Shown one piece after another: positions 1,160 through 48,914 of a DNA stretch of 64,000 nucleotides (position 1 is its first letter; the number at the start of each line of letters is the position of its first letter). Under the pieces are notes generated by a model. The model was not told the origin of the DNA and did no database searches. It saw only the letters and a program-made list of their open reading frames with translations. Source of the stretch: Enterobacter sp. CC120223-11 (GTDB lineage Bacteria > Pseudomonadota > Gammaproteobacteria > Enterobacterales > Enterobacteriaceae); contig NZ_OBEF01000012.1 in the NCBI RefSeq assembly GCF_900215375.1, forward strand, positions 62,001 to 126,000, read 5' to 3'. A program made the translations under genes and the position numbers.

Positions 1160-1280
1160 ACTTTAAGTCTATGCCGAACCCCTTTTTTTGCCACCTGAAA
1201 GGGTGATTTTTTCGCCGAAATTTTTCCCGCCTTGCACCACAGTTCCTATAGTTATTTTGAACAACTCACAGGAGATCTCC

Positions 1281-1949
1281 ATGCTGACCGTGCATCATCT
1301 GAATCTTTCGCGTTCCCAACGCGTGCTCTGGGCTTTAGAAGAGCTGGAGCTGCCCTACCAGATTGTGCGCTATCAGCGTGAGCCAACGATGCTGGCACCT
1401 GAAGCGCTGAAAAAGGTGCACCCTCTGGGCAAGTCACCGGTGCTGGAAGACGAGGGTACGATCCTCGCCGAGTCCGGGGCGATTCTGGAATATATTCAGG
1501 AAACGCGCGACCCGGAACAGCGCCTGAAGCCGCAGAGCCCGCAGGACAACATTCAATATCGCTTCTGGCTCCACTATGCCGAAGGTTCACTGATGCCGAT
1601 GCTGCTGATGAAGCTGGTGTTCGGCAGCCTCGGCAAGCCACCGGTGCCCATCGGGCTGCGAACGGTGGGAAAAATTCTCGGGCAGGGCGTACAGAAGGCG
1701 TACCTCAACAAGCAGTTGGCAACCCACGCGGCCTTTATTGAAGAGCATCTGGCGCAAAACACCTGGTTTGCCGGGGAGCAACTGAGCATGGCCGACATCC
1801 AGATGAGCTATCCGGCGATGGCACTGCTGGCGAGAGGCGGTCAGGGTGATTTACCGCATCTGACGGCGTGGAAAAAACGCGTCGAAATGCGTCCGGCCTG
1901 GCAGCGGGCCATTCAGCAGGGTGGCCCGCTCGACTTTCCCGGAGGGTGA
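1281..1949 (+). CDS. Glutathione S-transferase family protein
   Basis: 222 residues with a thioredoxin-like N-terminal GST domain (about 1-78; LSRSQRVLWALEELELPY is the start of the glutathione-binding site, and LGKSPVLEDEG plus ESGAILEYI are the cis-Pro and Glu-Ser glutathione-contact motifs) and an all-helical C-terminal domain with the usual FAGEQLSMADIQM capping box near residue 170. It probably conjugates glutathione to electrophiles or reduces peroxides in the cytoplasm; the substrate is unknown. The start at 1281 follows a clear AGGAG (1270-1274). It sits between soxR and ghxP, where E. coli K-12 has no gene, so it may be a lineage-specific partner of the oxidative stress genes, though no SoxS box was identified. 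Confidence 0.85.
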   Translation: MLTVHHLNLSRSQRVLWALEELELPYQIVRYQREPTMLAPEALKKVHPLGKSPVLEDEGTILAESGAILEYIQETRDPEQRLKPQSPQDNIQYRFWLHYAEGSLMPMLLMKLVFGSLGKPPVPIGLRTVGKILGQGVQKAYLNKQLATHAAFIEEHLAQNTWFAGEQLSMADIQMSYPAMALLARGGQGDLPHLTAWKKRVEMRPAWQRAIQQGGPLDFPGG

Positions 1950-2024
1950 TTCATCATCATAAAAAGCGATGACCGGGCGAAATGAAAATAATCTGCCATA
2001 AAATTGTTGCCAGATTGCGCAGGG

Positions 2025-2229
2025 ACGATATCGTTTGCGCATACGTTGGCGATTTCTTCGCCGTCATAAGCGAAATTTAGCGAAATGACGCAAACATCAG
2101 TTGAAAAGGGCAGCGCAAAAGCCAGATAATCGTTTGCCTTTTTTGCCCGCCCTGGTTTTCTTATGGATAAACCGCAGGGCAGGTCACATTGAATACCGTT
2201 TTTGTCTGCGCGGAGTTAATCGTTTGCTT
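2025..2229. promoter_or_regulatory. ghxP leader with repeated PurR-like half sites
   Basis: The 392-bp gap between the GST gene and ghxP holds no gene. It carries the motif CGTTTGC three times (2032-2038, 2131-2137, 2221-2227), twice followed by a T run, and ACGCAAAC once (2088-2095). These match the halves of the PurR operator ACGCAAACGTTTGCGT; the best full match is 2025-2040 with 12 of 16 bases. ghxP takes up purine bases, so PurR control is expected. Whether each copy binds PurR is not known. Confidence 0.5.
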
Positions 2230-2341
2230 TTTTGTGGCTCCCCTTAGCCGCGATGTAGCACAGGGAGATGACGCTTAGCTGGCAGTGGATTGTCCCTCAC
2301 GCAGACGGACGAATGATAAAAACTCTCAGGGGATGTTTTCT

Positions 2342-3688
2342 ATGTCTACGCCTTCAGCGCGTACCGGCGGTCTGGACGCCTGGTTCAAAATTTCAGCTCG
2401 TGGCAGTACCGTACGTCAGGAGATTGTTGCCGGTTTAACCACCTTCCTGGCGATGGTCTACTCCGTTATCGTCGTGCCGGGCATGCTCGGCAAAGCGGGC
2501 TTCCCGCCAGCCGCCGTCTTCGTGGCAACCTGCCTGGTCGCGGGTGTGGGTTCACTGGTGATGGGTCTGTGGGCCAACTTACCGCTGGCCATTGGCTGCG
2601 CCATCTCGCTGACCGCGTTTACCGCATTCAGCCTGGTACTTGGTCAGCACATCAGTATTCCTGTTGCCCTGGGCGCCGTGTTCCTGATGGGTGTGCTGTT
2701 TACGGTGATTTCCGCCACCGGCATCCGTAGCTGGATCCTGCGCAACCTGCCGCAGGGCGTTGCGCACGGGACCGGCATCGGTATCGGCCTGTTCCTGCTG
2801 CTGATTGCGGCGAACGGCGTGGGCCTGGTTGTTAAAAACCCGCTGGACGGCCTGCCGGTGGCTCTCGGCCACTTCGCAAGCTTCCCGGTGATCATGTCGC
2901 TGATTGGCCTGGCGGTGATCATCGGTCTGGAAAAAATGAAAGTGCCGGGCGGCATTCTGCTGACCATTATCGGCGTCTCCGTCGTCGGCCTGATTTTTGA
3001 TCCGAGCGTGCATTTCTCCGGCATCTTCGCTATGCCTTCTCTCAGCGATGAGCACGGCAACTCGCTGATTGGCAGCCTGGATATCATGGGTGCGTTGAAC
3101 CCGGTTGTTCTGCCAAGCGTGCTGGCGCTGGTGATGACCGCGGTGTTTGACGCCACGGGCACCATCCGTGCGGTAGCCGGTCAGGCGAACCTGCTGGATA
3201 AAGACGGGCAGATCATCAACGGCGGTAAAGCGCTGACCACCGACTCCCTGAGCAGCGTGTTCTCTGGCCTGGTGGGCGCGGCCCCGGCGGCGGTGTACAT
3301 CGAATCCGCAGCGGGTACGGCGGCAGGCGGCAAAACCGGCCTGACGGCGATCACCGTCGGCGTACTGTTCCTGCTGATCCTGTTCCTCTCCCCGCTCTCC
3401 TACCTGGTGCCTGCCTACGCCACCGCTCCGGCGCTGATGTACGTGGGTCTGCTGATGCTGAGCAACGTGGCGAAAATCGACTTCGCTGACTTCGTTGACG
3501 CGATGTCTGGCCTGATCACGGCGGTATTTATCGTCCTGACCTGTAACATCGTTACCGGCATCATGATCGGTTTCGCGACCCTGGTGATTGGCCGCGTGGT
3601 CTCCGGTGAGTGGCGCAAGCTGAACATCGGCACCGTGGTGATTGCCCTGGCACTGGTAGCCTTCTATGCAGGCGGCTGGGCGATTTAA
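2342..3688 (+). CDS. ghxP: GhxP, guanine/hypoxanthine permease (YjcD)
   Basis: A 448-residue NCS2/AzgA-type purine permease, almost identical along its length to E. coli GhxP (YjcD, 449 aa). It imports guanine and hypoxanthine with protons across the inner membrane. The sequence is a chain of hydrophobic segments with the family motifs [14 protein letters not shown] near residue 275 and the [15 protein letters not shown] stretch near 325. The start at 2342 ([10 protein letters not shown]) matches the E. coli protein; an upstream in-frame ATG at 2285 would add an unconserved leader. Single-gene unit, ended by its own terminator; yjcE follows in the same direction. Confidence 0.96.
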
Positions 3689-13352: not shown

Positions 13353-13437
13353 CCCTCTCCCTGAGGGAGAGGGTTAGGGAGAGGGGGAAAGAGCGGTCTG
13401 ATGCCCTCTCCCCGGCCCTCTCCCACAGGGAGAGGGG
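13353..13437. repeat. Two palindromic CCCTCTCCC/GGGAGAGGG elements between acs and yjcH
   Basis: Two copies (13353-13387 and 13404-13437) of an inverted repeat built on CCCTCTCC...GGAGAGGG with the side motif TTAGGGAGAGGG or CCCCGGCCCTCTCCC. The same family occurs at least eight more times in this window. Lying inside the acs operon, the hairpins could attenuate or stabilise the mRNA. Confidence 0.85.
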
Positions 13438-23966: not shown

Positions 23967-24296
23967 CCCTCTCCCCGGCCCTCTCCCGGAAGGGAGAGGG
24001 AGAAAATCAGGTTCAAAAACCGCAGCGGCCAGTTCCCTCGTCCTGAGAGAGGGAGAAAATCAGGTTCAAAAATCGCAGCGGCCAGTTCTCTCGCCCTGTG
24101 AGAGGGAGAAAATCAGGTTCAAAAATCGCAGCGGCCAGTTCTCTCGCCCTGTGAGAGGGAGAAAACCAGGAGCAAAAACCGCAGTGGCCAGTTCCTTCGC
24201 CCTATTGAGAAGGAGAAAACCAGACCCGGTGCAGTCATCGGAAAGCCGCACAGAACCAGTTCCCTCTCCCTCCGGGAGAGGGTTAGGGAGAGGGCG
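23967..24296. repeat. 53-bp tandem repeat array bounded by palindromic elements
   Basis: A 53-bp unit is repeated four to five times: the word CAGG(T/A)(T/G)C recurs at 24008, 24061, 24114 and 24167, then a decayed copy at 24221 (spacing 53, 53, 53, 54). Each unit holds GAGAGGGAGAAAA, AAAAA(T/C)CGCAG(C/T)GGCCAGTTC and a small CTCTC/GAGAG stem. The two ends are full palindromic elements of the CCCTCTCCC family (23967-24001 and 24262-24296). Inner copies are nearly identical, outer ones diverged. It lies within the operon, between the isomerase and the sugar-binding protein genes. No gene in this 366-bp stretch. Confidence 0.93.
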
Positions 24297-25278: not shown

Positions 25279-26271
25279 TTATGCACTTTGATGGTGTCGG
25301 GTACGGTATTTGTCGATCAGTACCGCAATGATGATCACCGCCCCTTTGATCACCAGTTGCCAGAAGTAGGAGACGCCCATCAGTGTCATGCCGTTGTTGA
25401 GGGTGGCGATAATCAGCGCCCCGACCAGGGTGCCGGTGATGGTGCCAATGCCGCCGACGAAGCTGGTACCGCCGAGTATGACCGCCGCGATGGCGTCCAG
25501 CTCGTAGCCCATGCCGAGGTTGCCGTTGGCGCTGTAAAGCCGCGAGGCGCTCATCACGCCGCCAAGCCCGGAGAGCAGGCCGCTCATGCCGTACACGAAC
25601 AGCAGCACCAGCCACACCTTGATGCCGGTCAGGCGCGCCGCCTGCATGTTGCCGCCCACCGCGTAAATATGAACGCCAAGCGTGGTGCGGCGCAGAATGA
25701 ACCAGCACACCGCAATGACCGCCAGCGCGATCACCACCAGCCACGGAATCGGCCCGAGGTAGTTGTTACCTATCCACTCAAAGCTGATGTTGGAGTTGAT
25801 CACCGTGGTGCCGTCCGCCAGCAGGTATGCCGCACCGCGCAGCGCCGTGTAGGTGCCGAGGGTGACGATAAACGGCGGTAGCCCCGCGAAAGCCACCAGT
25901 GCGCCGTTGAACAGCCCGAGCAGCAGGCCGAGCATCAGCGCGGCGGGAATGGACAGCATGGAGAATTCCGGGATCAGCGACACCACCATCGCTGCCACCG
26001 CCGTGGTGCCGAGAATCGAGCCTACGGAGAGGTCGATCCCGCCGGTCAGGATGATGAAGGTCATCCCTGCTGCCAGCACGATGTTGATCGACGCCTGGCG
26101 GGTGATGTTCAGCAGGTTGCTTTCAGTGAAGAAGTTTGGCGCAACGAAGCCAAAGACCGCCACTATCAGGATCAGGATCGGTAAGATCCCGACCGTTTGC
26201 ATCAGATCGCCCATCAGCATTTTACGGGCTGAGGCCTTTGCCACCTGCTGTGGCGCGTTTTGCGTGGTCAT
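25279..26271 (-). CDS. Sugar ABC transporter permease (RbsC family)
   Basis: 330 residues, RbsC/AlsC-type with about ten membrane segments and the landmarks [19 protein letters not shown] (~79-97), [18 protein letters not shown], and [21 protein letters not shown] (~265). Its start overlaps the ATPase stop by 4 bp, and the binding-protein gene follows 30 bp later, so all three are one transporter unit in the order ATPase-permease-binding protein. Confidence 0.92.
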
Positions 26272-27788
26272 GGTTGCACCGCCTGGTGATGGGATTCGTT
26301 CACGCCGGTTGCCAGCGTCATAATATTTTCCTGGGTGATGTCGTGGTTCAGCAGCTCTCCGGCAATGCTGCCTTCGCGCATGACGTACACGCGGTCGCTC
26401 ATGCCAACGATTTCCGGCAGCTCGCTGGAGATCATCAGGATGGCCACGCCCTGACGCGCCATCTGGTTCATGATGCGGTAAATCTCGCTTTTCGCGCCGA
26501 CGTCCACGCCGCGCGTGGGTTCATCAAGGATCAGAATGCGCGGGCCAATCGCCACCCAGCGGGAGATCAGCAGCTTCTGCTGGTTACCGCCGGACAGACC
26601 GCCCGCCCGCACCTGAGAATGTGGTACGCGGATATTCAGCAGCTTGATGGCGTCGTCGGAGATGGTCTGCGCCTTTTTGCGGTCGAGCATGCCGTAGTGC
26701 GCATCGCGCTCGAGCGTCGCCATAGTGATGTTTTCCTGCGCCGCCAGTTCGAGAAACAGCCCTTGCTCTTTGCGGTTTTCAGTGAGGAAGCCGATGCCTA
26801 AATCAATGGCCTCGCGCGGGGAGTGAATGAGTACGGGTTCGCCGTCCACTTCAATCACGCCGCCGGTGGCCTTGCGTACGCCGAATATCAACTGCGCCAG
26901 CTCGGAGCGGCCCGCGCCGACTAAACCTGCCAGACCGACGATTTCCCCCGAACGCACCAGCAGGCTGCATGGCTGGACTTTGCCGCCGTCCGTCAGATGA
27001 TGGACGTTGAGGCGCGCCTGGCCGTGGGGAATGTCGCGTTCCTTGTTGAACAGATCGCTCAGCGGGCGGCCCACCATCATGCGCACCAGTTCGGAGGCGT
27101 TGAGCTTGTCGCGCATCAGGCTGCCGACGTACTGCCCGTCGCGCAGCACGCTGACGCGGTCGGACAGCTCATACACCTCCGCCATGCGGTGGCTGATGTA
27201 GATGATGGCCATCCCTTCGTCGCGCAGGCGCAGAATGAGTTCGAACAGGCGGTGGGTTTCACGGGAGGAGAGGGCGGCGGTGGGTTCGTCCATCACCAGA
27301 ATGCGGCTGTTGCGGTGCAGCGCGCGGGCAATTTCCACCTGCTGCTGTTCGGCGATGGTCAGCTTCATCACCAGATCGGTGGCTTTGAACTGCGCGCCGA
27401 GGCGGTTAATGACCTCCTGGGCTTGGGCGACCATGGTTTTGCGCTGCACCAGACCGCCGCGAGAGAGCTCGCTGCCGAGGAAAATGTTTTCGGCGACGGT
27501 CAGATTCGGGGCCAGCTGCATCTCCTGATAAATCAGAGTGATGCCTGCCGCCAGCGCGTCTTTTGGGCCTTTGATGGCGTGCGGCTTGCCGTCAATCAGG
27601 ATCTCACCGCTGGTGGCGGTATACGCCCCGGCAAGAATTTTCATCAGCGTGCTTTTGCCCGCGCCGTTCTCCCCCATCAGGGCGTGGATTTCGCCGGGGA
27701 ACACCGTTAAGTCCACCCCCTTCAGCGCATAAAATTTGCCGAACGCTTTGGCAATATTGCGCATCTCAAGTACCGGCGTCTGATTCAT
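26268..27788 (-). CDS. Sugar ABC transporter ATPase with two ABC domains (RbsA/AlsA family)
   Basis: 506 residues with two tandem ABC domains. The first has Walker [15 protein letters not shown] (39-52), Walker [14 protein letters not shown]; the second has a degenerate Walker [14 protein letters not shown] and signature [14 protein letters not shown] with [15 protein letters not shown], as usual for RbsA-type proteins. First gene of the minus-strand accessory operon. Upstream (27789 on) lie palindromic repeats and the remnant of the divergent kinase gene; the operon promoter must be there but could not be assigned. Confidence 0.93.
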
Positions 27789-27906
27789 GGCGCAACTCCT
27801 GAGGGATGGTCGATATCAGCAGTCCATCACAGGAAAGTAAATGCAAAATGTCAGAGGCCGTTCATATTTGTCATAGTGCGTGAAATTTGAACTTGATCGT
27901 GAGTTT

Positions 27907-27999
27907 CCCCTCTCCCCGGCCCTCTCCCAAAGGGAGAGGGTGAAAACAAGATCGCGCTGAACGGTTCCCTCTCCCCCCGGGAGAGGGTTAGGGAGAGGG
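27907..27999. repeat. Two palindromic CCCTCTCCC/GGGAGAGGG elements
   Basis: Copies at 27907-27940 and 27967-27999 upstream of the ABC transporter operon. The second copy leads directly into the duplicated 5' end of the histidine-kinase gene; a partial copy (29003-29023) has the same position before the intact kinase gene. Confidence 0.85.
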
Positions 28000-28017
28000 C
28001 AACCACTATTTGAACCA

Positions 28018-28112
28018 ACGGAGACACCATGCCACTACGCCGACCCTCATTTTCGCCAGCGCTCGCGGCCACCTGCTGTTTTTCAGCCATCGACCAAAGC
28101 CTTATCTTGTAA
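28018..28112 (+). pseudogene. Decayed duplicate of the 5' end of the hybrid kinase gene
   Basis: Bases 28020-28087 repeat the leader and first ~58 bases of the kinase gene at 29041-29109: GGAGACACC, the ATG and the next fourteen bases (ATGCCACTACGCCGACC) are identical, later bases differ at several places and one T is lost, so the frame shifts and ends at TAA 28110-28112 after 27 codons (MPLRRPSF is shared). Similarity stops at about 28087 and AT-rich DNA begins. It looks like a relic left by an insertion or by a tandem duplication with later loss. Confidence 0.85.
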
Positions 28113-28435
28113 CGTTGAGCCTTTATAAGCGACGTCTTGTTGTTTGTTAAGTCATTGCAGGGATTGACCTGGAGTGATTTTTTGTTTTTTATTGCAAGTC
28201 TAAATAAAACAATTAGTTAGATAATTAAAAAAACATCAACATTTGCCAATTATTAGTTTTCAAGAAAAGAGGTCATTTTTTTATGTCGATAAAACACCTC
28301 TGTAGTTTTATTCTCTTCATTTCTTATTTAAACAGAGGGGGATTAATTATCTGATAACAAAATTGTAATAAACATAAAGCTGGAAAGCAGCACCCTATAC
28401 AAAGCTAAATTCACCGTTACCCACCAGAGGTTTTT
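28113..28435. other. AT-rich non-coding stretch ahead of the LptA-like gene
   Basis: No credible gene. Base composition changes abruptly to AT-rich with long A and T runs (28190-28400), unlike the GC-rich operon to the left. It presumably carries the promoter of the small exported protein that follows; no confident -35/-10 pair was chosen. Such DNA is typical for H-NS-bound transferred segments. Confidence 0.6.
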
Positions 28436-28765
28436 ATGAAAAATCTACTCACTTTGTCAGTTGTCTCTGCCGCTCTTTTTTTCGCCGTTCCTGCGTATTC
28501 CATGGAGGTTTCCGCTGATGCGACTCAGACCCTTCAGGAATACAATGGAAATGCCCGAATCGTGTTTAAGCCGGGTGAAAAATTCGAAATTTCCGCGGAT
28601 AAAACATCAAAAAATAACGGCGCTACCGTTTTCTCCGGCAATGTAGTCGTAACGTATGAAGGGACTACACTGGAAACGGACTCTATGACTTTGAGAAAAC
28701 AAGCAGATGGAGCCGTTCTTCTTGAAGCGAAAAAATTCCTGATGAAGCATGCGGGTGTAAAATAA
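28436..28765 (+). CDS. Small exported protein resembling the LptA/OstA domain
   Basis: 109 residues: signal peptide MKNLLTLSVVSAALFFAVPAYS, then about 87 residues with an OstA/LptA-like pattern, FEISADKTSKNNGATVFSGN followed by VVVTYEGTTLETDSMTLRK ("ADK...FSGNVVVTYEGTTLETDSM" parallels the ADxAxY...GNVxxxxGxxxLxADxL signature). LptA family members bridge lipopolysaccharide across the periplasm; this one is half as long and stands alone, so it is unlikely to be the main LptA. AGAGG precedes the start. It lies in the AT-rich insert between the kinase remnant and the real kinase gene. True function unknown. Confidence 0.65.
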   Translation: MKNLLTLSVVSAALFFAVPAYSMEVSADATQTLQEYNGNARIVFKPGEKFEISADKTSKNNGATVFSGNVVVTYEGTTLETDSMTLRKQADGAVLLEAKKFLMKHAGVK

Positions 28766-29050
28766 AACTCTCACCACAGCTATGGACAAATACCGCCTGT
28801 TGTCCAGAAACCATCCACAATCAAAGGTATTGAAGTGATGCGTGTGCCGGGTAAAGGCCATTCTTCACCTTTTTATTAGGGTGCTCCCCTGAACGGATGC
28901 GTCTGGTGAGCAGTGTTTTTGAAATGTAAGGCCTTTCAATAAGATAAAAGCTGCCTTATCGTGAACTTTGTAACCGTGCCCGAAGGACTGCTCTGAACCG
29001 TTCCTCCTCCCTACGGGAGAGGGTAATCACCGCAAACCACAGGAGACACC

Positions 29051-31372
29051 ATGCCACTACGCCGACCGTCATTTTTCGTGAGCGCCCGCGGCCGCCTGCT
29101 GTTCTTCAATCTGCTGGTGGTGGCGGTGACGCTAATGGTGAGCGCGGCAGCGGTGCTGGGGTTTCGTAACGCCAGTCAAATTCAGGAGCAGGTGCAGCAG
29201 CAAACCTTCGATGACGTCACCAGCAGCATGAACCTGGCGCGCGACACGGCGAACGTGGCGACGGCGGCAGTGCGGCTTTCGCAGGTGGTGGGCGCGCTGG
29301 AGTACAAAGGCGAAGCGGAGCGTTTACAGGCGACGCAAAAAGCGCTCAAACATTCCCTCGAGCAGCTGGCGGCGGCCCCTCTCGCCAGCCATGAACCGGA
29401 GCTGGTGCAGCGCATCATCCAGCGTAGCAATGAACTTCAGCAAAGCGTGGCGGGTATGCTGCAACGCGGGCAGCAGCGTCATCTGGAACGCAACGCGCTG
29501 TTGAGTTCGCTCTATCAGAACCAGAGCTATCTGCGTCATCTGGAAGCCATCAACCAGCGGCCCGGTGAAGGCGCGCTCGACGGACGTCTGCTGCTGGAAA
29601 TGGACAGGCTAATCACCGCCGCGATTGAAACGCCCACACCACGTTCGGCAGTACGCCAGTTAGACGTGGTGATGGCGGGCGTGCCTGCCGAAAGCGCCGA
29701 TCCGCCCGTCGCCTTCATCCTGCCGGACTTTAACGCCGAACTGCGCAAGCTGGCCCCGCTCTCCGTGAAGCTTGAGCAAAGCGACCTCGCCATCAGCTGG
29801 TACATGTTCCACATCAAGGCGTTAGTCGCCATCCTGAACGACGACATTAACCAGTACGTGACGCAGGTGGCGCGCTCCTCCGAACAGCGCGTGGCCCAAA
29901 GCCATCGTGAGCTGGGCTCAATTGTCGATCTGATAGTCAGCTTTGCCCTGCTTGCGCTGATCATCACTGGCTTCGCAGGCTGGTATATCTATCGCAATCT
30001 GGGTTCGAATCTGAACGCCATTTCTTCGGCGATGTCGCGGCTGGCGCACGGCGAGCAGGATGTTTCCGTGCCTGCGCTTCAGCGGCGCGACGAACTCGGG
30101 GAGCTGGCTCGCTCGTTTAGCGTATTCGCGCGCAACACGGCTTCGCTGGAACATGCCTCGCGCCTGCTGAAAGAAAAAACGACGCAGATGGAGCTCGATC
30201 GCATTGAGCGCCAGGGGCTGGAAGATGCCCTGCTGCACAGCCAGAAGATGAAGGCGGTCGGGCAGCTGACCGGCGGCCTGGCCCATGATTTCAACAACCT
30301 GCTGGCGGTGATTATCGGCAGCCTCGAACTGGTAAAACCGAATGAATCCGATGAGGCGCGCATCTCCAGGGCGCTGAAGGCCGCCGAGCGCGGGGCGATG
30401 CTCACCCAACGCCTGCTGGCGTTCTCGCGTAAGCAGTCGCTACACCCGCACGCCGTGGAGATGAAAGGGCTGCTGGAGAACCTCGGCGAGCTGATGCGCC
30501 ACTCTTTGCCGTCGACGCTCACGCTGGAGCTTGAGGCCCAGACCCCGGCGTGGTCGGCATGGATCGACGTCGGCCAGTTGGAAAACGCCATCATCAACCT
30601 CGTGATGAACGCCCGCGATGCAATGGACGGGCAGTCCGGCGTCATTAAAATCCGCACCTGGAACCAGCGCGTCACCCGTAGCGACGGGCGCAGGCAGGAC
30701 ATGGTGGCGATTGAGGTGATTGACCATGGCAGCGGCATGTCGCAGGAGGTGAAGGCGCAGGTGTTCGAGCCGTTCTTCACCACCAAGCAGACCGGTAGCG
30801 GCAGCGGGCTCGGCCTGTCGATGGTGTACGGGTTTGTGCGCCAGTCCGGCGGGCGGGTAGAGATTGAGAGCGCGCCGGGGCAGGGCACGACGGTACGTCT
30901 ACAGCTGCCACGCTCTTCGCTTCAGGCGGTGGAGCGATTGCCGGAAGCGGTGGTGGCCGATGAAGTACCCGAGGAGCGTCTGGCACTGGTGCTGGAAGAC
31001 GAAGCCGACGTGCGCCAGACCTTATGTGAACAGCTGCACCAGCTGGGCTGGCTGACGCTGGAGGCCGCCGACGGTGAGCAGGCCATCGCGCTGCTCGATG
31101 CAACAGATGAGATAGCGATGCTGATAAGCGACCTGATGCTGCCGGGCAAACTGAGCGGTGCGGAGGTGGTGAATCACGCGCGCACGTATCATCCACAGGT
31201 AGCCGTATTAATGATCAGCGGTCAGGATTTGCGTCCGGCAAACAATCCTCAGCTGCCGGACGTGGAGCTGCTGCGAAAGCCTTTCACCCGAACGCAGCTC
31301 GCACAGGCGCTACGGCAGGCGCAGGCAGGTGCTGGCTCCGGGCAAGCGTCGCCGCGCCTTGTGCGCCGTTGA
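29051..31372 (+). CDS. Hybrid sensor histidine kinase with C-terminal receiver
   Basis: 773 residues: TM1 ~15-38; ~250-residue periplasmic helical sensor; TM2 ~292-314; HAMP ~315-367 ([20 protein letters not shown]); DHp with His412 in [12 protein letters not shown]; HATPase ~500-620 with N box [12 protein letters not shown] boxes DHGSGMS and [13 protein letters not shown]; receiver ~640-765 with Asp694 in LISDLMLP and Lys in LLRKPF. There is no HPt domain. Divergent from the sugar operon and probably the partner of the regulator at 20366. GGAGACACC precedes the start. The last 89 bp overlap the convergent alsK; the LRKPF receiver motif is in the overlap edge, so the coding end is genuine. 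Confidence 0.9.
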
Positions 31373-32228
31373 AGGCGGAAGAGGAGGCGGCGATAAAGCG
31401 CACCGCGTCATGCGGCAGCGGGCGGCGAAGATGCTGTTTTATCTGCGCAATCAGCGCCTCGCGCGGGAAGTCTGCCATGTCCATTACACCGCCGCCGAGG
31501 ATCACCGCGTCGGGGTCGAACAGGTTCACGCTGGTGGCAATGGCGCGGGCGGCGTGGGAAAGCAGCGCGGTAACGAAGGGCTCGTTCTGCGCAAAGACAA
31601 ACAGCTCGCCCATTTCATAGTCGCGCGGCGCTGAGTCATACCAGCGCTTCAGCGCAATGCCGGAGCAGACGGTTTCGAGGCACCCCGCGTTACCGCAGCC
31701 GCAGGTGAGCGACATATCGCCCTGCGGAATGTGGCCAAGCTCGCCCGCCACGCCGTGCGCCCCGGTCCAGGGCGCGCCGTTGAGCCAGACCGCAAAGCCC
31801 ATTCCGGTGCCGAGATAGGCGCCAAGCACCTGACTCTCCTGCAAGCCGTTCTGCGCCACGTCGAACGAGAGCTGCAAATTCACATCGCGGGAAAATTCCA
31901 CCGGGCAGCCGAGTGCGTCTTCCAGCTTGCCCGCCAGTTCGTTCAGCTCCTCGGCCCGCAGCGGCAGATTGGGCGTGGAGATAATGGTGCGCTTGTCTTT
32001 GCCGACCAGCGCCGGGAAGCCCATCACCAGGCCCCGACAGCGCGCTTTCAGCCGTGCCAGCGGGGCGCCGAGCAGCGCAGCAATGCCGCAGACCACGCCG
32101 CCTGTAATCACCTCGGCGGTGCGCTGCTTTTCGCAGTGCAGCACTTCGCCGTTGTCATCCATCAGGCACAGGCGGATATGGGTTGCGCCCATATCAATAC
32201 CTGCCACCACGTTAAGCGCTTTTAGCAT
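31284..32228 (-). CDS. alsK: AlsK, D-allose kinase (ROK family)
   Basis: 314 residues, close to E. coli AlsK (309). ROK sugar kinase: ATP motif [13 protein letters not shown] (10-22), catalytic [13 protein letters not shown] signature [10 protein letters not shown] with zinc ligands [10 protein letters not shown], and [14 protein letters not shown]. Phosphorylates D-allose to D-allose 6-phosphate. Start at 32228 ([10 protein letters not shown]) because the homologous region begins there; it overlaps the alsE end by 17 bp. The C-terminal ~20 residues differ from E. coli and are encoded in the 89-bp overlap with the histidine-kinase gene. Confidence 0.94.
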
Positions 32229-32907
32229 GAGGCATGACCTCGTTTCGGGCCGCCAGGATCTGCTCACTCATCACCTGCCAGGCGTCGTCGATGTTCTGAG
32301 CGTGGTTAAACAGCCCGGAGGTGCCGACGATAAACACATCCGCCCCGGCGTTCATGAGGCGTTCATAGGTGGCGGCGTTACAGGAGCCGTCGATTTCAAT
32401 TTCATACTCCAGCCCTTCGCGTTCGCGCCAGGCTTTAAGCTCCGCCACCTTGTCGAGCATTTCGGGAATGAACGGCTGGCCGGCAAAGCCCGGGTCCACG
32501 GTCATCACCGTAATTTTGTCCGCCTTATGAATGTAGTACTTCATCGCCTCGACCGGGGTTTCCGGGTTGAGAATAAGCCCCACCTTCATGCCGTGGCGGC
32601 GAATCTCTTCAATCAGGCGAAACGCCTGGCCGTTGATGGTTTCCGGGTGCAGGGTGATGTAATCGGCCCCGGCCTGTGCCAGCTGACTGATGTAGTCCTG
32701 CGGGCGCGTCACCATCAGGTGGCAGTCGAGCGGCTTGCTGGCGAGCTTCTTCACCTGGCCGACGAAAAACGGCGACAGCGTCAGGTTCGGCACAAAGTGG
32801 CCGTCCATGATGTCGATGTGAAAGTAGTCCGCGTGCTGGTCGATAAAGGCGATCTGCTCCTGGAACTTCGCCAGATCCATGCACATCAGAGAGGGGGAAA
32901 TTTTCAT
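32212..32907 (-). CDS. alsE: AlsE, D-allulose-6-phosphate 3-epimerase
   Basis: 231 residues, same length and almost the same sequence as E. coli AlsE. Ribulose-phosphate-epimerase-type TIM barrel: [17 protein letters not shown] (31-47), [26 protein letters not shown] (~135-152), IEIDGSCN. Converts D-allulose 6-phosphate to fructose 6-phosphate in allose breakdown. Two adjacent ATGs; 32907 has the better SD spacing (AGGA). Starts 10 bp after alsC. Confidence 0.96.
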
Positions 32908-32917
32908 CATGGGATCC

Positions 32918-33898
32918 TTATTTACTGATTAACCGGTCCAGGGCTACGGCGGCGATAATCAGCCCGCCCATCACCACCAGCTGGTAGTAGGTTTGTACCT
33001 GGAGAATATTGAGGCCGTTATTGATGGTGCCGATGATAAGACCCCCAATGACGACCGAGAAAATGCGCCCTTTGCCGCCGAAGAAGCTGGTGCCGCCGAT
33101 AATGGCGCTGGCAATGGCGTAGGTTTCAAAGCCCATGCCCGCCAGCGGCTCTGCCGCGCCTAAACGCGCCGTCGACACCACGCCCGCTAGCCCCGCGCAG
33201 ATCCCGGAGATGATGAACACCACCAGAATGTGAAACTTCACGTCGATGCCGGAATAGAACGCCGAGTTTTTGTTGCCGCCGAGCGCGTAGATGTTGCGTC
33301 CGAGCCGCGTGCGGGTGGTGATGAACCACAGAATCAGCGCGATTAGCAGGGCGAAAATTACCGGCACCGGAATGCCGAGCGGGGCGGCGGCAAAGAAATT
33401 CACAAAGCCAAAGTCAAAGCCGTACACCGAGTTGGCGTCGGAAATCACCAGCGTTGCGCCGCGGAAGATGGCGTTGGTGCCGAGCGTGATGATGAACGGA
33501 TGCAGCCCCGTCCAGTTCACCAGGCAGCCGTTGATCGCCCCGAGCAGGCCACCGACCAGCACGCCGCCGATAAGTGCGGCCAGAATCGGGTCCATTCCGG
33601 CGAGCATCAGCTTGGCGGTGACCATCCCGGAAAGGGCGAGGATCGCGCCAACCGACAGGTCAATCCCCGCCACCAGAATGGCGAAGAATTCCCCCATGCC
33701 GATAAGCACCGTCACCGAGCTTTGTACAAAGATGGCGCTGATGTTGTTGGCGGTCAGGAAGTACTCCGACGACAGGGTGCCGAAGATGCCGACGATGATC
33801 GCGAGGATAAAAAAGGTGCCGTATTTATCCCAGAACAGCGCGAAGTTGAACGGCTTTTTGTCGCCCGGTTCGGCCTTCATTCTTGTGGTAATGCCCAT
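32918..33898 (-). CDS. alsC: AlsC, D-allose ABC transporter permease
   Basis: 326 residues, as in E. coli. RbsC-type permease with about ten membrane segments; landmarks GIDLSVGAILALSGMVTAKL (~79), WTGLHPFIITLGTNAIFRG (~128), GGTSFFGGKGRIFSVVIGGLI (~270). Start overlaps the 3' end of alsA by 22 bp, so it is coupled to the ATPase gene. Part of alsBACEK. Confidence 0.95.
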   Translation of the reverse strand: MGITTRMKAEPGDKKPFNFALFWDKYGTFFILAIIVGIFGTLSSEYFLTANNISAIFVQSSVTVLIGMGEFFAILVAGIDLSVGAILALSGMVTAKLMLAGMDPILAALIGGVLVGGLLGAINGCLVNWTGLHPFIITLGTNAIFRGATLVISDANSVYGFDFGFVNFFAAAPLGIPVPVIFALLIALILWFITTRTRLGRNIYALGGNKNSAFYSGIDVKFHILVVFIISGICAGLAGVVSTARLGAAEPLAGMGFETYAIASAIIGGTSFFGGKGRIFSVVIGGLIIGTINNGLNILQVQTYYQLVVMGGLIIAAVALDRLISK

Positions 33899-35409
33899 GC
33901 CATGATCTCCTCTTCGCTCATGTCGTCGCGATTGGTCAGAATTTGCGTCAGTCGCCCCTCGCAGAACACGGCGATGCGGTCGCAGACGGCGATGATTTCA
34001 GGAAGTTCGGACGACACCATCAGGATGACCTTTCCGTCATCGCCTAGCTGGCGCATCACTTTGTAGATTTCAGCCTTCGCGCCGACGTCGATGCCGCGCG
34101 TCGGTTCGTCAAAAATCACCACTTCCGGGTTGCAGCACAGCCATTTGGAAATCAGCACCTTCTGCTGATTGCCGCCGGAAAGCTCGGTGATGTTCTGATC
34201 GACGCTGTGGCACTTCAGCCCCAGCAGCTGGCGCTGCGCCTCGGCGGTTTTGCGTTCTTCCGCCTCGGCGAGCAACCCCATCGCGCCCTTGTAACCGCCC
34301 ATTTTCAGGCTGCGGCTGAGCGCCATGTTCTGGGCGATGGAAAAATTCGGAAAGAAGCCGTTCTCACGGCGGCTTTCGGTAATGTAGCCCATGCCTTTTT
34401 TCAGCGCGTCGAGCGGCGAACGCGGAGAGATGTTTTTGCCGTTGAGGTGAATCTCCCCGCTGGCGCGTTTGTCGATACCGAACAGGCAGTTCATCAGTTC
34501 GGTGCGCCCGCTGCCGACGAGGCCTGCGAAGCCGAGAATTTCACCACGGTTTACGCTGAACGAAATATCGCGCACCTTTTTGCGGTCGCGGCTGGTGACG
34601 TTTTTCACCTCGAAGACCGTGTCGCGCTCCACGTTGCCGGTGCTCTCTTTCATGGCATTAAAGCGGTTTTGCAGCTCGCGGCCCACCATCAGGCGCACGA
34701 TATCGTCGTTGGTGACGTCGCTGACCTGGCCGCTGCACACGCTGCTGCCGTCCTTCATCACCGTGTAGCGGTCGCAGATGCGGCGAATTTCGGCGAGCTT
34801 GTGGGAGATGTAGACGATCGCCGTGCCTTCTTTACGCAGCTGATTCATGATCAGAAACAGATAGTCCACTTCGTTATTGGTCAGCGAAGACGTGGGCTCA
34901 TCCATAATGATCACTTTGGCGTCGAGCATTAAGGTTTTGGCGATTTCCAGCATTTGTTTATGGCTGATGGATAAATTCGCCACCTTTTCATCGAGATCCA
35001 CTTTTAAGCCGACGCGCAATAACATCATTGCCGCGCGAATACGCATCTCTTTCCAGTCGATAATATTCAGGCCGAGCACTTTTTTAGTGGTGTGGCGGCC
35101 AATATAGAGATTTTCCAGCACCGTTAATTCATCAATGACGCTGAGTTCCTGATAAATAATGCCAATGCCTAATTGCGCCGCTAACTTATGATCAAGTTTG
35201 TCGTAGGAAATATCATTAATAACGATGGTGCCTTTGGTCGGTTCATGAATCCCCGACAACACTTTCATTAAGGTTGATTTACCGGCCCCATTTTCCCCGA
35301 GCAGCGCGTGTATTTCGCCCGGGTAAAGGGTTAAATCAACCGACTTCAATGCGTGAACCGGGCCAAAGGATTTGCCGATCCCCGCCATGGAGATATATGG
35401 CGTGAGCAT
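33877..35409 (-). CDS. alsA: AlsA, D-allose ABC transporter ATPase
   Basis: 510 residues, two ABC domains: first with Walker [15 protein letters not shown] (~38) and [15 protein letters not shown]; second with degenerate Walker [17 protein letters not shown], signature [14 protein letters not shown] and [15 protein letters not shown]. Energises allose uptake (also low-affinity ribose in E. coli). Similar in build to the ATPase at 26268 of the accessory operon. Separated from alsB by 126 bp filled with palindromic repeats. Confidence 0.96.
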
Positions 35410-35433
35410 AGCTGAACCTCATGTTGTAATTCG

Positions 35434-35526
35434 CCCTCTCCCTAACCCTCTCCCAAAGGGAGAGGGAACAGAACGGAGCAGGTTTGGTCATCTCCCTCTC
35501 CCTCCGGGAGAGGGCCGGGGAGAGGG
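35434..35526. repeat. Two palindromic CCCTCTCCC/GGGAGAGGG elements between alsB and alsA
   Basis: Copies at 35434-35466 and 35493-35526. Hairpins just after a binding-protein gene are a common way to keep its mRNA more abundant than that of the ATPase and permease, so these repeats may have been co-opted for that. Confidence 0.85.
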
Positions 35527-35535
35527 GATACTGAA

Positions 35536-36474
35536 CTATGACTTCGTCACTAACACCGAATCCACCAGCTTGAACTCCGGTGCTTTATCAAGCGGAATAA
35601 CCTTGCCGGTTTTGGCTGCGTCCACCAGCAGCTTCAGGCCGGTTGCACCAATGTCTGCCGGGTTTTGCGCGACCGTGGCGGTCATCTGCCCGGCGTCCAC
35701 CATCTTGCGTGCTTCCGGAATACCGTCGGTTCCTACAACCAGCACTTTGCCGGTTTTACCCGCGTTGGCCACGGCCTGAGCCACACCCATTGCCATGGTG
35801 TCGTTGGCGCAGTAGAAGGCTTTCAGGTTCGGGTTGCGCTGTAAGACGTTAGTGGCCACGTCGAGTGCCTTAATGCGGTCCCAGTCGGCGGGCTGGCTTG
35901 CCACCAGCTTGATTTGGCTCGCTTTCTTGAAGGCATCCGTCGCACCGTTGCGGCGTGCTTCACCGGAGGCGTTACCCGCTTTTCCTTCAATAATAGCCAC
36001 TTCGCCGCCCTGAGCGCCGAGCTTGTCGATAATGAAGTCCGCGCCTTTTGCGCCGACGGCCACGTTATCGGTGGTGACGAAAGCTTCGACGTTGCCGCCC
36101 GCTTTTTTCAGGTTATCCATATCGATTTTTTCATCGAGGTTGACCAGGTAAATGTCCTTTTTCCACGCACGGGCAACGGGCATCACCAGGTTCACCGACG
36201 AGAGCGGCGCAAAGGCGATGCCTTTGTAATTTTTATTGCTCAGGTCTTCAAAAAGCTGCAATTGCGACTGGAAATCCCCTTCCGACGGTGAGGCAAATAC
36301 GTCGACGGTGACGCCTAACGTTTTCGCTTCGTCCTCAATCCCTTTTTTCATATCCACCCAGAACGGGTTGGATAAGGTTTTTAACACCACGGCATAATCG
36401 GCGGCGGCAAAGGCATTGGCGGACAACATCATACCCACAGCCGCACCGCTGAAATATTTCAGATATTTATTCAT
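35536..36474 (-). CDS. alsB: AlsB, D-allose-binding periplasmic protein
   Basis: 312 residues (E. coli AlsB 311). Signal peptide MNKYLKYFSGAAVGMMLSANAFA followed by a type I sugar-binding fold (YAVVLKTLSNPFWVDMKKGI; VEAFVTTDNVAVGAKGADFI; FYCANDTMAMGVAQAV). High-affinity allose capture. The start at 36474 matches E. coli and has GAGA at proper distance; 36480 is an alternative. Next upstream is rpiR, 59 bp away in the same direction. Confidence 0.96.
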   Translation of the reverse strand: MNKYLKYFSGAAVGMMLSANAFAAADYAVVLKTLSNPFWVDMKKGIEDEAKTLGVTVDVFASPSEGDFQSQLQLFEDLSNKNYKGIAFAPLSSVNLVMPVARAWKKDIYLVNLDEKIDMDNLKKAGGNVEAFVTTDNVAVGAKGADFIIDKLGAQGGEVAIIEGKAGNASGEARRNGATDAFKKASQIKLVASQPADWDRIKALDVATNVLQRNPNLKAFYCANDTMAMGVAQAVANAGKTGKVLVVGTDGIPEARKMVDAGQMTATVAQNPADIGATGLKLLVDAAKTGKVIPLDKAPEFKLVDSVLVTKS

Positions 36475-36533
36475 GGTCATATTCTCAATGTAGGGTGAGA
36501 GCGGCGACGCTGAATATCAGCGCCACCTGTTTT

Positions 36534-37424
36534 TTACTTCAGCGCGCCCGGGGAGAAGAAATCCACAATTGCGCCAGTCTTTTGCATATTTAAAGTAGCC
36601 TGTTCAATATTTTGCTGAGCCACGGAAACAAATAAGGCATCTAATAATGTTAATTGTAATATACGCGCGGAGGCGTTTCTCCCTAATAAAGGGGTCTCTG
36701 GTGCTGGCGAACAAATAATAAAATCTGCAAGGCGGGCAATCGGCGAATGGTAACTGTGGGTGATACAGATGATTTTCGCCCCGTTCTTTTTCGCTAACTC
36801 AACCGCCGCTTTCAAATCGCTGGTGCGCCCGGAGTGGGAGACCACCAGCACCACATCGCCCTCTTTGAGCAGCGAGGCGGACATCATCATAATGTGCGCG
36901 TCCTGATAAGCCTGGCAGCGCACGCCGATGCGTAAAAACTTGTGCTGAATATCGGCACAGATGGCGTTCGAGCCGCCGACGCCGTACAGATCCCGCTGGT
37001 TGGCCTGGGCAAAAAAGCGGGCCGCCCGATGAATTTCGTCGACGTTAACGATCGACTGGCCTTCCATAATGGTGCGCAGCGTAATGTTGAACACCTTGTT
37101 GACCACGTCTTCCGGCGCTTCGTCAAAGGCCAGCTCCGTTGGCAGCACCTGCTCTGATTCAGAGAAATAGGCCACCAGCGCGCTGCGCAGATTACGAAAA
37201 CCGCTGAACCCGAGCAGCTTCGATACTTTGACGATCATCGCTTCCGACACCGCCAGTGCTTCGGCCACGTCTTTAATTGCCGGGGCATCGCTCAGGTTGC
37301 CGGGCTTCAGGAGCCAGTCGACGATCCGGCTTTCATTGTCCGTCATCCCTTCCTGCTTCATGCGCAGCCAGGGGGCGAGGCCGATCCCGTTAGGCAGTTG
37401 TGCATCACTTTCTGACTGACTCAT
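36534..37424 (-). CDS. rpiR: RpiR/AlsR, repressor of rpiB and the als operon
   Basis: 296 residues, same length as E. coli RpiR (AlsR). N-terminal HTH_6 (IKDVAEALAVSEAMIVKVSKLLGFSGFRNLR split over 50-80) and C-terminal SIS domain (GVGGSNAICADIQHKFLRIG; VVSHSGRTSDLKAAVELAKKNGAKII in two parts). Represses rpiB and als until allose is present. Start at 37424 (MSQSESDAQLPNG) by homology. Divergent from rpiB. Confidence 0.95.
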   Translation of the reverse strand: MSQSESDAQLPNGIGLAPWLRMKQEGMTDNESRIVDWLLKPGNLSDAPAIKDVAEALAVSEAMIVKVSKLLGFSGFRNLRSALVAYFSESEQVLPTELAFDEAPEDVVNKVFNITLRTIMEGQSIVNVDEIHRAARFFAQANQRDLYGVGGSNAICADIQHKFLRIGVRCQAYQDAHIMMMSASLLKEGDVVLVVSHSGRTSDLKAAVELAKKNGAKIICITHSYHSPIARLADFIICSPAPETPLLGRNASARILQLTLLDALFVSVAQQNIEQATLNMQKTGAIVDFFSPGALK

Positions 37425-37492
37425 CTGGTTCTCTTGTCCTTGAAATGAAGACGACACTATATCACCACAGGTCGGACAGAAAATATGCTGGC

Positions 37493-37540
37493 AACTTCAC
37501 AAAAACTATAAATTCATAAAGTTTTATTTTTTGTGAAGTT
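37493..37540. promoter_or_regulatory. rpiR-rpiB intergenic region with 13-bp inverted repeat
   Basis: The 354-bp gap holds no gene. Perfect inverted repeat AACTTCACAAAAA (37493-37505) and TTTTTGTGAAGTT (37528-37540), spaced 22 bp, so the two centres are 35 bp apart. It lies 69 bp before rpiR. As RpiR-family proteins bind inverted repeats near their divergent genes, this is the likely RpiR (AlsR) operator. The rest toward rpiB is AT-rich with possible promoters, not assigned. Confidence 0.55.
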
Positions 37541-37778
37541 TATGTGTTGACGATATTTTGACTTTATCGTTATAAAACATGTTGTTATGTTATTGATGGG
37601 CGTCAAACATGCGATTGGTGTTTAGCATGTTTACGGAATAAATGCGTTGCTCCGTAAAGTTGAACGGTGTAGAAGTGAGCTCGAACCCGGCGATTTTGCC
37701 GACAAAATGGGCAGTGAACCGGTCTGAAATCACAGAAGTCGCCGGGTTCGTAAAGTTAACCTGACAACGAGGCGAATC

Positions 37779-38228
37779 ATGAACAAAATTGCATTCGGGT
37801 GCGATCACGTGGGATTTCAGCTCAAAGCGGAGATCCTCGCGCATCTGCAGGGACGGGGCGTTGAGGTAATAGATAAGGGAACGGACTCTGCTGAGCGAAC
37901 CGATTACCCGGAGTACGCCAGTGCGGTAGCTCAGGCGATTGGCCGCGGCGAAGTGGACGGCGGGATCCTGATCTGCGGCACAGGAGTTGGGATCTCCATT
38001 ACGGCGAACAAGTTTCCAGGGATCCGCGCGGTGGTGTGCAGCGAGCCTTATTCGGCGCAGCTTTCGCGCCTGCACAATAACACCAACGTGCTGGCATTTG
38101 GCTCGCGGGTGATAGGCGCGGAGCTCGCAAAAATGATCGTGGACGCGTGGCTTGATGCGGAGTTTGAAGGCGGGCGTCACCAGAAGCGCGTGGAGGCAAT
38201 TGCTGCGATTGAGCAGCAGCGCAATTGA
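37779..38228 (+). CDS. rpiB: RpiB, ribose-5-phosphate/allose-6-phosphate isomerase B
   Basis: 149 residues, equal to E. coli RpiB. LacAB_rpiB fold with FGCDHVGFQLK (7-17), catalytic Cys in LICGTGVGISITANKFPGIRA (~64-84), HNNTNVLAFGSRVIG (~99-113). Interconverts ribose 5-phosphate and ribulose 5-phosphate, and acts on allose 6-phosphate, giving allulose 6-phosphate for AlsE. Divergent from rpiR and als. Confidence 0.97.
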   Translation: MNKIAFGCDHVGFQLKAEILAHLQGRGVEVIDKGTDSAERTDYPEYASAVAQAIGRGEVDGGILICGTGVGISITANKFPGIRAVVCSEPYSAQLSRLHNNTNVLAFGSRVIGAELAKMIVDAWLDAEFEGGRHQKRVEAIAAIEQQRN

Positions 38229-38297: not shown

Positions 38298-38630
38298 ATG
38301 AAACGACCCGCAACGGCGCTGCTGTTTTGTACGCTCTCCCTGTTAAGCCAGCTGGCCCATGCCGATATCATTGATGATGCGATCGGCAATATTCAGCAGG
38401 CGATCAATGACGCTTACAAACCGGATAACGACCGCGTTTATCACGACGACCGCGACGACGATGACAGCGATCGTCCGCAAAATACTGAGCGCAGCCGTCA
38501 ATACGATGACCGCTACCGTCAGCTTGAAGACCGGCGTCGTCAGTTAGATGACAGGCAGCGCCAGCTCGACCAGGAGCGCCGTCAGCTGGACGATGAAGAA
38601 AATCGTCTGCGGGATGATTACGACCGTTAG
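38298..38630 (+). CDS. yjdP: YjdP, small exported charged-repeat protein
   Basis: 110 residues: signal peptide (MKRPATALLFCTLSLLSQLAHA), then DIIDDAIGNIQQAINDAY and a tail rich in Asp, Arg and Gln with repeats of (R)RQLDDRQ (residues 65-108) that should form a highly charged helix. Homologue of E. coli YjdP, which follows rpiB in the same way. Function unknown. Confidence 0.88.
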   Translation: MKRPATALLFCTLSLLSQLAHADIIDDAIGNIQQAINDAYKPDNDRVYHDDRDDDDSDRPQNTERSRQYDDRYRQLEDRRRQLDDRQRQLDQERRQLDDEENRLRDDYDR

Positions 38631-38773
38631 CGTTTAACTGGGGTGTCATTCCGGATTGCCTGATTGAGAAAGGTAATGAGCAGGGCGGTCATCAGAGTTG
38701 CAATCAGGCGAGATAACCCAGTGGGTTAGGGTAATTGCACCTTAAACCATCCATGCAAGTTGATGTGATATGA

Positions 38774-39373
38774 CTAGGGTGTCAGTAACAGGAGTTTCGA
38801 CATACGCATCACATTATAAATGACCTGCATATTATGGGTTCTTAGTTTCTTCTTGATATTCCCTTTATGGGTGGAAACTGTTTTTGAACAAATACTGAGA
38901 GCCTTGCTAATGTCAGATGTGTTCATGCCTGCCATCCATAAACTCACCAGCATGCGCTCCTTTGGACTCAGAATAAATTTGCAGATATTATCGGCGACAG
39001 GGGTACTGAAAAAATTGGAGGAAAACAGGGCGTTCAGCGTCAAAGTATCAATCTCTTTAGAGCAAATAATCACGTTGTCATCAAGCAATACCAGTTCCTG
39101 ATAGCGTAAGTTAAAAGAGGTAACGAAGATGACAAATAAAACATCAACATGTTCTGATATTATTTTCTTAATTTCATTTAAACAAGGGATGTTCTCATTA
39201 ATAATATCTTCATTAATCACTACGATACGGGGAGTTATGTTTTTAAATAAATCACCAAGGGTGTTTGTTGAGCTGATATCGAGAATGATATCTCTGGACT
39301 TTATTTTCCCTATTTGATTGATAATTCCACTCTTAGTATAGCAGCAATGATCCATTATCATTATTGGTTTCAT
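38774..39373 (-). CDS. RcsA-like LuxR-family transcription co-regulator
   Basis: 199 residues. The N terminus (MKPIMIMDHCCYTKSGIINQI) and the INED stretch at 53-56 follow E. coli RcsA (TIIMDLCSYTRLGL; FINED); the C-terminal LuxR helix-turn-helix (134-195) includes KTVSTHKGNIKKKLRTH and NMQVIYNVMR, matching RcsA KTVSSHKGNIKRKIKTH and NKQVIYHVVR. No canonical acidic receiver pocket, as in RcsA and RmpA, which work as partners of RcsB. AT-rich coding sequence, unlike rpiB and phnP. It lies directly after an RcsB-like gene in the same direction. Probably a horizontally gained auxiliary Rcs regulator; the main rcsA would be elsewhere. Confidence 0.8.
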   Translation of the reverse strand: MKPIMIMDHCCYTKSGIINQIGKIKSRDIILDISSTNTLGDLFKNITPRIVVINEDIINENIPCLNEIKKIISEHVDVLFVIFVTSFNLRYQELVLLDDNVIICSKEIDTLTLNALFSSNFFSTPVADNICKFILSPKERMLVSLWMAGMNTSDISKALSICSKTVSTHKGNIKKKLRTHNMQVIYNVMRMSKLLLLTP

Positions 39374-39468
39374 AACATCCCTTGTTTGGTATTATTCTAT
39401 TTTGGATTGATGAAAGCGATTTTTGCCAACAAAGCCATACAAAACAATAGGATGTGCTAACCACTTAC

Positions 39469-39482
39469 TAAGAAGTTCCTTA
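39469..39482. promoter_or_regulatory. RcsAB-box-like site upstream of the RcsA-like gene
   Basis: TAAGAAGTTCCTTA is a near-perfect dyad matching the RcsAB box (TAAGAATATTCCTA) in 10 of 14 positions including both outer half sites. It is 96 bp before the RcsA-like start; E. coli rcsA is itself activated through such a box. The surrounding 304-bp gap (39374-39677) has no gene I could recognise. A short CCCC/GGGG hairpin with T5 on the minus strand (39508-39524) might end the RcsB-like transcript. Confidence 0.5.
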
Positions 39483-39677
39483 AAATCTTACCAGGGATCT
39501 CTTTTTTAAAAACCCCTTCCGGGGACAGTTTTAAGAAATGACTAAATTCTGGAGATACCCTCCTGACAGAGCTCGGCAAGAATCCAGGTCTTGGCCAGGC
39601 ACTTATTTCGTTGATGCCGAACCTTAGGGTACTGAGTCTGCATAATCGCGAGTTTCTGTTCAAATACTGCCGCCGCG

Positions 39678-40316
39678 CTATGGCAGCAATACAGTGCTCT
39701 TGGTGGTAGACGACATGCTAACCTCAGTACCCAGCCCGGCAGTCTGAGCACACTGAAAAAGCTCGAAATCATTTGCCGCCCCCAGTTTGCACATCGCGCT
39801 CTTCTTTTGCGCACTGATTGTCTGTTTAGTTCGGTTAAAATAGCCGCTTATCTCATTGACGGTCATGCCACTCAGTAACAAACGAACCACTTCAGTTTCC
39901 CTCTGCGTGAGTTGGGTTATAGGTTTTTCCGCCATTTTCATACTGCGCGAAGAACAGCGCAGGATTTTCAGCAGATCGGTCAACATGCTGTTTTTACTCA
40001 ACACCTTAACGCCAAAACTTCGTATAGTTGCCAGCAGCCCTGGATTGGATATCATGGTTACCACCACAATTATGCATTGCGGGTAATCCCTCACTAGCTT
40101 CCGCACCATGGTAATCCCATCAGGAAAATGAATTCCAGGCATGCACAGATCGGTAATAATAATATCGACCGGTTGAATCGCCAGCTTCATCATTACGTCA
40201 TCCGAATTCATCGATTCATGAACAACATTGTAAAGATCTTTCCTTGTATTTAACAATGTCTTGAGTCCAAGTAAGCAAACAGGATGATCGTCCGCAATAA
40301 GTACAGTTTTAACCAT
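39678..40316 (-). CDS. RcsB-like response regulator (NarL/FixJ type)
   Basis: 212 residues. Receiver 1-120: acidic pair Asp9-Asp10 in IADDHP, phospho-acceptor Asp56 in IITDLCMPG (same position as RcsB Asp56), Lys108; DGITMVRKLVRDYPQ and VVTMISNPG parallel RcsB DGITLIKYIKRHFPS and VLTMNNNPA. LuxR domain 135-195: LTQRETEVVRLLLSGMTVNEI, TISAQKKSAMCKLGAANDFEL, close to RcsB TISSQKKSAMMKLGVENDIAL. The ~20-residue tail is not RcsB-like. Start at 40316 (MVKTVLIADDHP). Upstream at 40427-40442 is a looser TAAGAA...TCCTA motif. No phosphorelay kinase is nearby, so it may be fed by RcsD or act unphosphorylated. Confidence 0.82.
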   Translation of the reverse strand: MVKTVLIADDHPVCLLGLKTLLNTRKDLYNVVHESMNSDDVMMKLAIQPVDIIITDLCMPGIHFPDGITMVRKLVRDYPQCIIVVVTMISNPGLLATIRSFGVKVLSKNSMLTDLLKILRCSSRSMKMAEKPITQLTQRETEVVRLLLSGMTVNEISGYFNRTKQTISAQKKSAMCKLGAANDFELFQCAQTAGLGTEVSMSSTTKSTVLLP

Positions 40317-40590
40317 AACACCAACTATAGTTGGAAGGGATGATGCCTCAATAATATCAGGGATACTTTTTAACTTATATGCCAGGGAATTAGATATGAT
40401 AGGTATGCAAGACACATCTTAGGCTATAGGAGGTATTTCTTAGTCATCTGGTTATTGCATCCTAATGCTGGTTTTATTCTGGTATGGCAATCCCACAGAG
40501 CCGATAAAAATAGCTATAAAAATCATTGGTGAAACATTTAAGAGAGAATAAGATTTGTTAAACAATCCATATTGAAGCCGATCCCTGGCG

Positions 40591-48800: not shown

Positions 48801-48914
48801 CCCTCACCCTAACCCTCTCCCTGTAAGGGAGAGGGAACAGCAAGGCGCTTCGGTATAACAAGGTGCAGTGGTTTTTCTCCCTCGCCCCTCAGGGGAGAGG
48901 GCCGGGGTGAGGGG
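48801..48914. repeat. Palindromic repeats where phnCDE are expected
   Basis: Two elements, 48801-48836 and 48879-48914, each with CCCTC(A/T)CC...GGGAGAGGG symmetry. They lie between phnF and yjdN, the place occupied by phnC, phnD and phnE in E. coli. CTGTCAT and CTGTCAC, PhoB-box half sites, occur on the minus strand at 48942-48948 and 48997-49003 but not as a full tandem box. Confidence 0.8.

Follow-up and report, generated by a model that had tools for sequence, protein, structure and literature searches.

We identified an insertion of foreign DNA, ending in a remnant of an IS6/IS26-family element, between a hybrid sensor histidine kinase gene and the divergent region upstream of it. It lies in a 64-kb window (the whole stretch of DNA that was analysed). 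The insertion is secure, and about 140 bp of native DNA is now present on both sides of it. The locus as a whole is real, derived and ordinary: an IS-associated insertion, partial duplication of the adjoining gene and one orphan ORF.

The duplicated kinase start and its counterparts in relatives

The native left flank is marked by a divergent neighbour, a sugar ABC transporter ATP-binding gene (26268-27788, minus strand; Pfam ABC_tran). It is followed by the native divergent intergenic region (27789-28028), which has two palindrome pairs and a block, putatively a promoter region, that is conserved in Enterobacteriaceae and was seen in the six congeners as well as in C. freundii and E. coli O157. 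The upstream copy of the duplicated segment (27950-28088, plus strand, left edge approximate) comprises the native kinase leader and the first 20 codons with a 1-base deletion. Alignments place the downstream copy at 28986-29110 (plus strand), joined to the intact hybrid sensor histidine kinase/response regulator gene (29051-31372, plus strand; Pfam HAMP, HisKA, HATPase_c and Response_reg), whose product has 88-95% amino acid identity in the six congeners.

GGAGACACC-ATG was found at 28020-28031 and again at 29042-29053, and the leader GGAGACACC, the ATG and about 58 further bases occupy 28020-28087 and 29042-29110. These positions agree with those given for the duplicated start in an earlier note on this DNA. 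When 28016-28090 was aligned locally with the rest of the window, cut into 400-base segments and taken on both strands, the second copy scored 48 and the next-best place 14. The repeat exceeds the length first stated there and stretches upstream of the kinase start, to about 140 bp in all. When compared with the congener G004, the left match ended at 28088 and the right match started at 28986, so that 140 bases of G004 are covered by both; for G006, the left match also ended at 28088, the right match began at 29015 and the overlap was 99 bases. One 74-base stretch of G001 matches both window copies, and G003 likewise shows overlap; in G002 and G005, the remaining members of this six-congener comparison, the left match ends short of the upstream copy.

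Both copies have the leader GGAGACACC, which all six congeners lack; the two copies therefore stem from the lineage of the window. They differ at 9 of 61 aligned columns, at which the congeners differ mutually by 3-11, and the upstream copy has a frameshift (the 1-base deletion) and an Arg-to-His change. Codons 1-19 contain seven differences, a tally that omits two more at the junction; the upstream copy carries the base commonest among the congeners at 4 of them and the downstream copy at the other 3. The assignment is weak at positions 18 and 36, since the congeners themselves vary there, and positions 29 and 30, adjacent changes in the downstream copy, may represent a single event. The upstream copy runs on unbroken from the conserved divergent region and is therefore, by position, the original kinase start.

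The earlier note drew attention to palindromes in front of both copies. They are present but not diagnostic, as the window contains 30 occurrences of the 9-mer CCCTCTCCC where 0.36 would be expected; their position in front of both copies follows from their lying within or beside the repeated segment. Being found at many places in the window, they were ruled out as insertion marks. Clusters of the CCCTCTCCC / GGGAGAGGG palindromes, which are REP-like, occur at 13353-13436, 23967-24294, 27908-27999, 29015-29023, 35434-35526, 48813-48901 and 61590-61612, and are tandem-like in the same intergenic region of G005.

We compared the locus with 85 relatives, comprising 79 named Enterobacteriaceae loci and the six congener stretches; L034-L038 appear to be the genomes of congeners G006, G002, G003, G004 and G005, so these 85 loci partly overlap. 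In 74 of the 79 named loci the kinase has the ABC transporter ATPase gene upstream of it; in the other 5 the script did not detect this gene. The ATPase-kinase gap is 134-497 bases in the six congeners (221 in G004, a value taken from its matching record L037) compared to 1262 here, and 113 to 497 bases in 71 of the 74 measurable named loci. No second kinase start was detected in the 79 named loci, where the best score was 14 against 39 in the window, the positive control; for L043 and L089 this search had only 208 and 131 upstream bases, respectively. The insert (28089-28980) had no match at E 0.01 in the 79 loci and six congener stretches. Single-copy, insert-free relatives, the comparison proposed in the earlier note, were thus found, and their lack of both the insert and a second start indicates that the insert is derived in the lineage of the window. 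The same note had read the locus as an insertion that duplicated the 5' end of a gene, with the upstream copy a decayed by-product. The insertion does part the kinase from its ancestral upstream region; however, the view of the upstream copy as a mere decayed by-product is not supported, given its native position and its 4 commonest congener bases against 3.

Among the congeners, G004 has the intergenic region most like that of the window, and in this comparison native homology is back 6 bases past the right end of the element, which is roughly where the alignment of the two window copies with each other also begins. The intergenic regions of the other five congeners are more divergent, and there the right match begins only at 29015-29042. 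The return of native homology right past the element end in G004 indicates that the element landed upstream of a kinase.

Bigger gaps were observed in three named loci: L084 (959 bases), L098 (1795) and L108 (2108). ORFs in the gaps of L084 (2099-3000) and L108 (about 890-3000) are other, unrelated genes, and the insert of the window had no match in any of the three. Because these gaps are enlarged by unrelated content, the ATPase-kinase gap may be a recurrent insertion site.

Content of the insert

The insert consists of about 0.9 kb of foreign, partly AT-rich DNA between the copies. In the earlier note it was described as AT-rich, which holds for its left part (28089-28435), with 31.7% GC, and not for the LptA-like ORF, with 43.9%; the flanking genes have 60.9% and 62.3%. 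The AT-rich part has no informative relatives and is missing from the 85 related loci.

That note also held that no transposase remains. In contrast, the right part of the insert (28815-28980, plus strand) matches the last 168 bp of an IS6/IS26-family element, bases 653-820 of the 820-bp IS26 copy in L002, with 82% identity (E 1e-41 when the 64-kb window was searched), and genes annotated as IS26 transposase overlie the matches of this remnant. It contains two single-base deletions, a frameshift and an in-frame stop at the end of the transposase gene. Its right inverted repeat (28967-28980) is 14 bp long, begins with GG, and has 2 mismatches to the IS26 end and 4 to the family terminal inverted repeat consensus given in PMC6807381. 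Since only bases 653-820 are retained, frameshifted and with a stop, this is a remnant and not an active element; unlike IS26, it is truncated, has no left end, no intact transposase gene and no target-site pair. Two plus-strand sites in 27789-29050 have 4 mismatches in 14 to the terminal repeat, one in a palindrome (27918) and one at the start codon of the LptA-like ORF (28429); as candidates for a left inverted repeat both were judged to be chance. The remnant was matched in at least 29 of 295 family genomes, including its own, when the best two candidates per genome were scored, and the best other match had 83% identity over nearly the full length. The own genome gave one match to the insert (among the best 8 of 11 candidates) and one to the remnant (among the best 2 of 9).

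The insert was also sought elsewhere, as the earlier note had suggested, and searches with 28085-28805 returned short AT-rich matches or none. The blastn search of plasmids gave short matches in 3 records (best E 0.06), that of phages 2 records (E 0.7) and that of E. coli genomes none. At least 7 of the 295 family genomes had a match with the best two candidates per genome scored, namely the own genome and 6 with short AT-rich matches.

The small LptA-like ORF reported between the copies was verified. It has 109 codons (28436-28765, plus strand) and, by eye, a signal-peptide-like N-terminus. Residues 53-100 match PF03968 (LptD_N/LptA), a domain that it shares with LptA, and pass the Pfam cut-off narrowly (22.6 vs 20.4 bits). 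However, the ORF fails the LptA equivalog TIGR03002 of NCBIfam (18.9 bits vs a cut-off of 71.7), is shorter than the LptA of the same genome (186 codons) and lies outside any lpt gene cluster; the host has its own lptA (G000:C26) and an lptD-like gene elsewhere. A single-sequence structure model had a mean pLDDT of 66.5. In a fold search with this model there was no match at E <= 0.001; the top candidate was DcrB (E 0.043), followed by weak matches to LptA/LptH chains with probability 0.93-1.00 yet E 0.06-0.57. A sequence search of the PDB gave LptH at E 0.32.

Close relatives of this ORF were not detected in genome contigs and viral contigs by short exact peptide patterns, which detect close relatives only. 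A protein search in phages gave none, and a search of PHROGs gave nothing below E 0.1. The plasmid search gave a single weak match (40% over 65 residues), located in a Leisingera plasmid at a place with no annotated gene and no forward-strand ORF of at least 50 aa covering it. In whole genomes, matches were found in 2 of 295 genomes of the family, 2 of 369 of the class and 1 of 398 of the phylum, sets which overlap and each of which counts the own genome. The two non-self matches belong to reading frames of 787 and 743 aa, which presumably encode LptD. With no close relative in the sets searched, the LptA-like ORF is, as far as sequence comparison goes, an apparent orphan. It seems improbable that it represents an intact, mobile, half-length LptA-like periplasmic protein that is carried by an IS6-family element, co-transcribed with a sugar-linked hybrid kinase and the source of new control of that kinase.

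Possible origins of the two copies

An IS6-family insertion does not by itself account for this layout. IS26 insertion is described in PMC6807381 as producing 8-bp target duplications and cointegrates; here the flanking duplication is about 140 bp, so a further recombination step is needed. The expected site of the 8-bp duplication of the element, placed by position from its end, would be 28981-28988.

We lean, if only a little, towards an origin in which the arrival of an IS6-family element with foreign cargo was followed by an illegitimate join of two haplotypes of one lineage. The element would have landed upstream of the kinase in one haplotype, with the foreign cargo on its other side. 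The element-bearing and element-free haplotypes of the same lineage would then have been joined. One of the two junctions would be due to homologous pairing and the other, after codon 20, would be illegitimate, the mechanism being either homology-facilitated illegitimate recombination or else a single crossover with a later deletion. The old start would thereby have been stranded, the kinase retaining its own ribosome site and full coding sequence, and later deletion and mutation would have worn the element down.

In homology-facilitated illegitimate recombination, linear DNA integrates by homology at one end and by an illegitimate join at the other, as described in PMC3240628. Such an event would leave a partial target duplication like that seen here; the match to this locus is one of layout. 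The process is rare in E. coli, with a value of 3x10^-10 per recipient for conjugation in the same source. Our literature search found no comparable case, which does not prove that none is in print.

A join of two haplotypes is consistent with the differences being found on both copies (4 downstream, 3 upstream), as would be the case for two alleles. Two alleles of one lineage would fit these small numbers slightly better than a gene and its freely decaying twin. Counting against this, seven differences are few, two of them are at congener-variable positions and two are adjacent.

A serious alternative, though the less likely one, is that in-place duplication in one genome gave two identical starts around foreign DNA which diverged later, for example through a large tandem duplication or the single-crossover integration of a plasmid, followed by deletion. 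The private leader of both copies agrees with this, the frameshift and Arg-to-His change of the upstream copy fit loss of function, and a difference at 9 of 61 columns, about the congener level, leaves time enough for divergence. However, the free copy should have changed more, yet the two changed about equally (3 vs 4), again on small numbers.

Retention of the upstream start as a translated leader that regulates downstream genes is very unlikely. The 1-base deletion leaves open a frame of 27 codons, which starts at the old kinase start, enters the insert (28029-28112, plus strand, from translation) and has an intact GGAG site in front. However, the two-copy layout occurs in no other locus compared, a short shifted frame is what chance yields, and every Rfam match stayed below the gathering score of its family, all five of these weak matches falling within palindromes; this frame is probably fortuitous. 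An assembly error fusing two loci is hardly credible: the genome is a draft of 39 contigs, but the site is about 90 kb and 57 kb from the ends of a 147-kb contig, the copies are too different to mislead an assembler, and the insert was matched once in its own genome (among the best 8 of 11 candidates).

The kinase and its surroundings

The kinase has its full length. Its closest congener is G006, as it is for the neighbouring genes, which makes import from a distant source unlikely and suggests, at the level of sequence comparison, that the gene is probably native and under normal constraint.

In G006 the kinase is directly followed by a yjdP-like gene; in the window a sugar-operon-like block (31284-38216) lies between the kinase and the yjdP-like gene (38298-38630). 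The block opens with a ROK-family gene (Pfam), the start of which overlaps the kinase 3' end by 89 bases; a search for a ROK gene in the six congeners, covering 14-kb stretches, gave none. The genes after it we take, by eye, to be an epimerase-like gene, two ABC transporter genes, a binding protein, a regulator and an RpiB-like gene, and we presume a resemblance to the allose operon. The stretch 38630-40589, which is missing from G006, has two ORFs (38774-39373 and 39678-40415) that look, by eye, like LuxR-type regulators.

The outward -35 in the inverted repeat of IS6-family elements can form a hybrid promoter. The promoter scan lent no support to such a promoter here, nor to the new promoter region that the earlier note placed in the insert: a sigma-70 consensus scan of 27789-29110 gave no forward promoter, and the two promoter-like sites that it did give, where 1.7 were expected, are on the minus strand. 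An IS257-derived hybrid promoter appears in a title in the reference list of PMC6807381.

If the kinase is still expressed, this would be from a promoter other than the close ancestral one, or by read-through of about 1 kb. The locus is a worked example of an insertion which is element-free to the eye and holds a worn IS26-family end, with a stranded start that marks the former beginning of the kinase gene.
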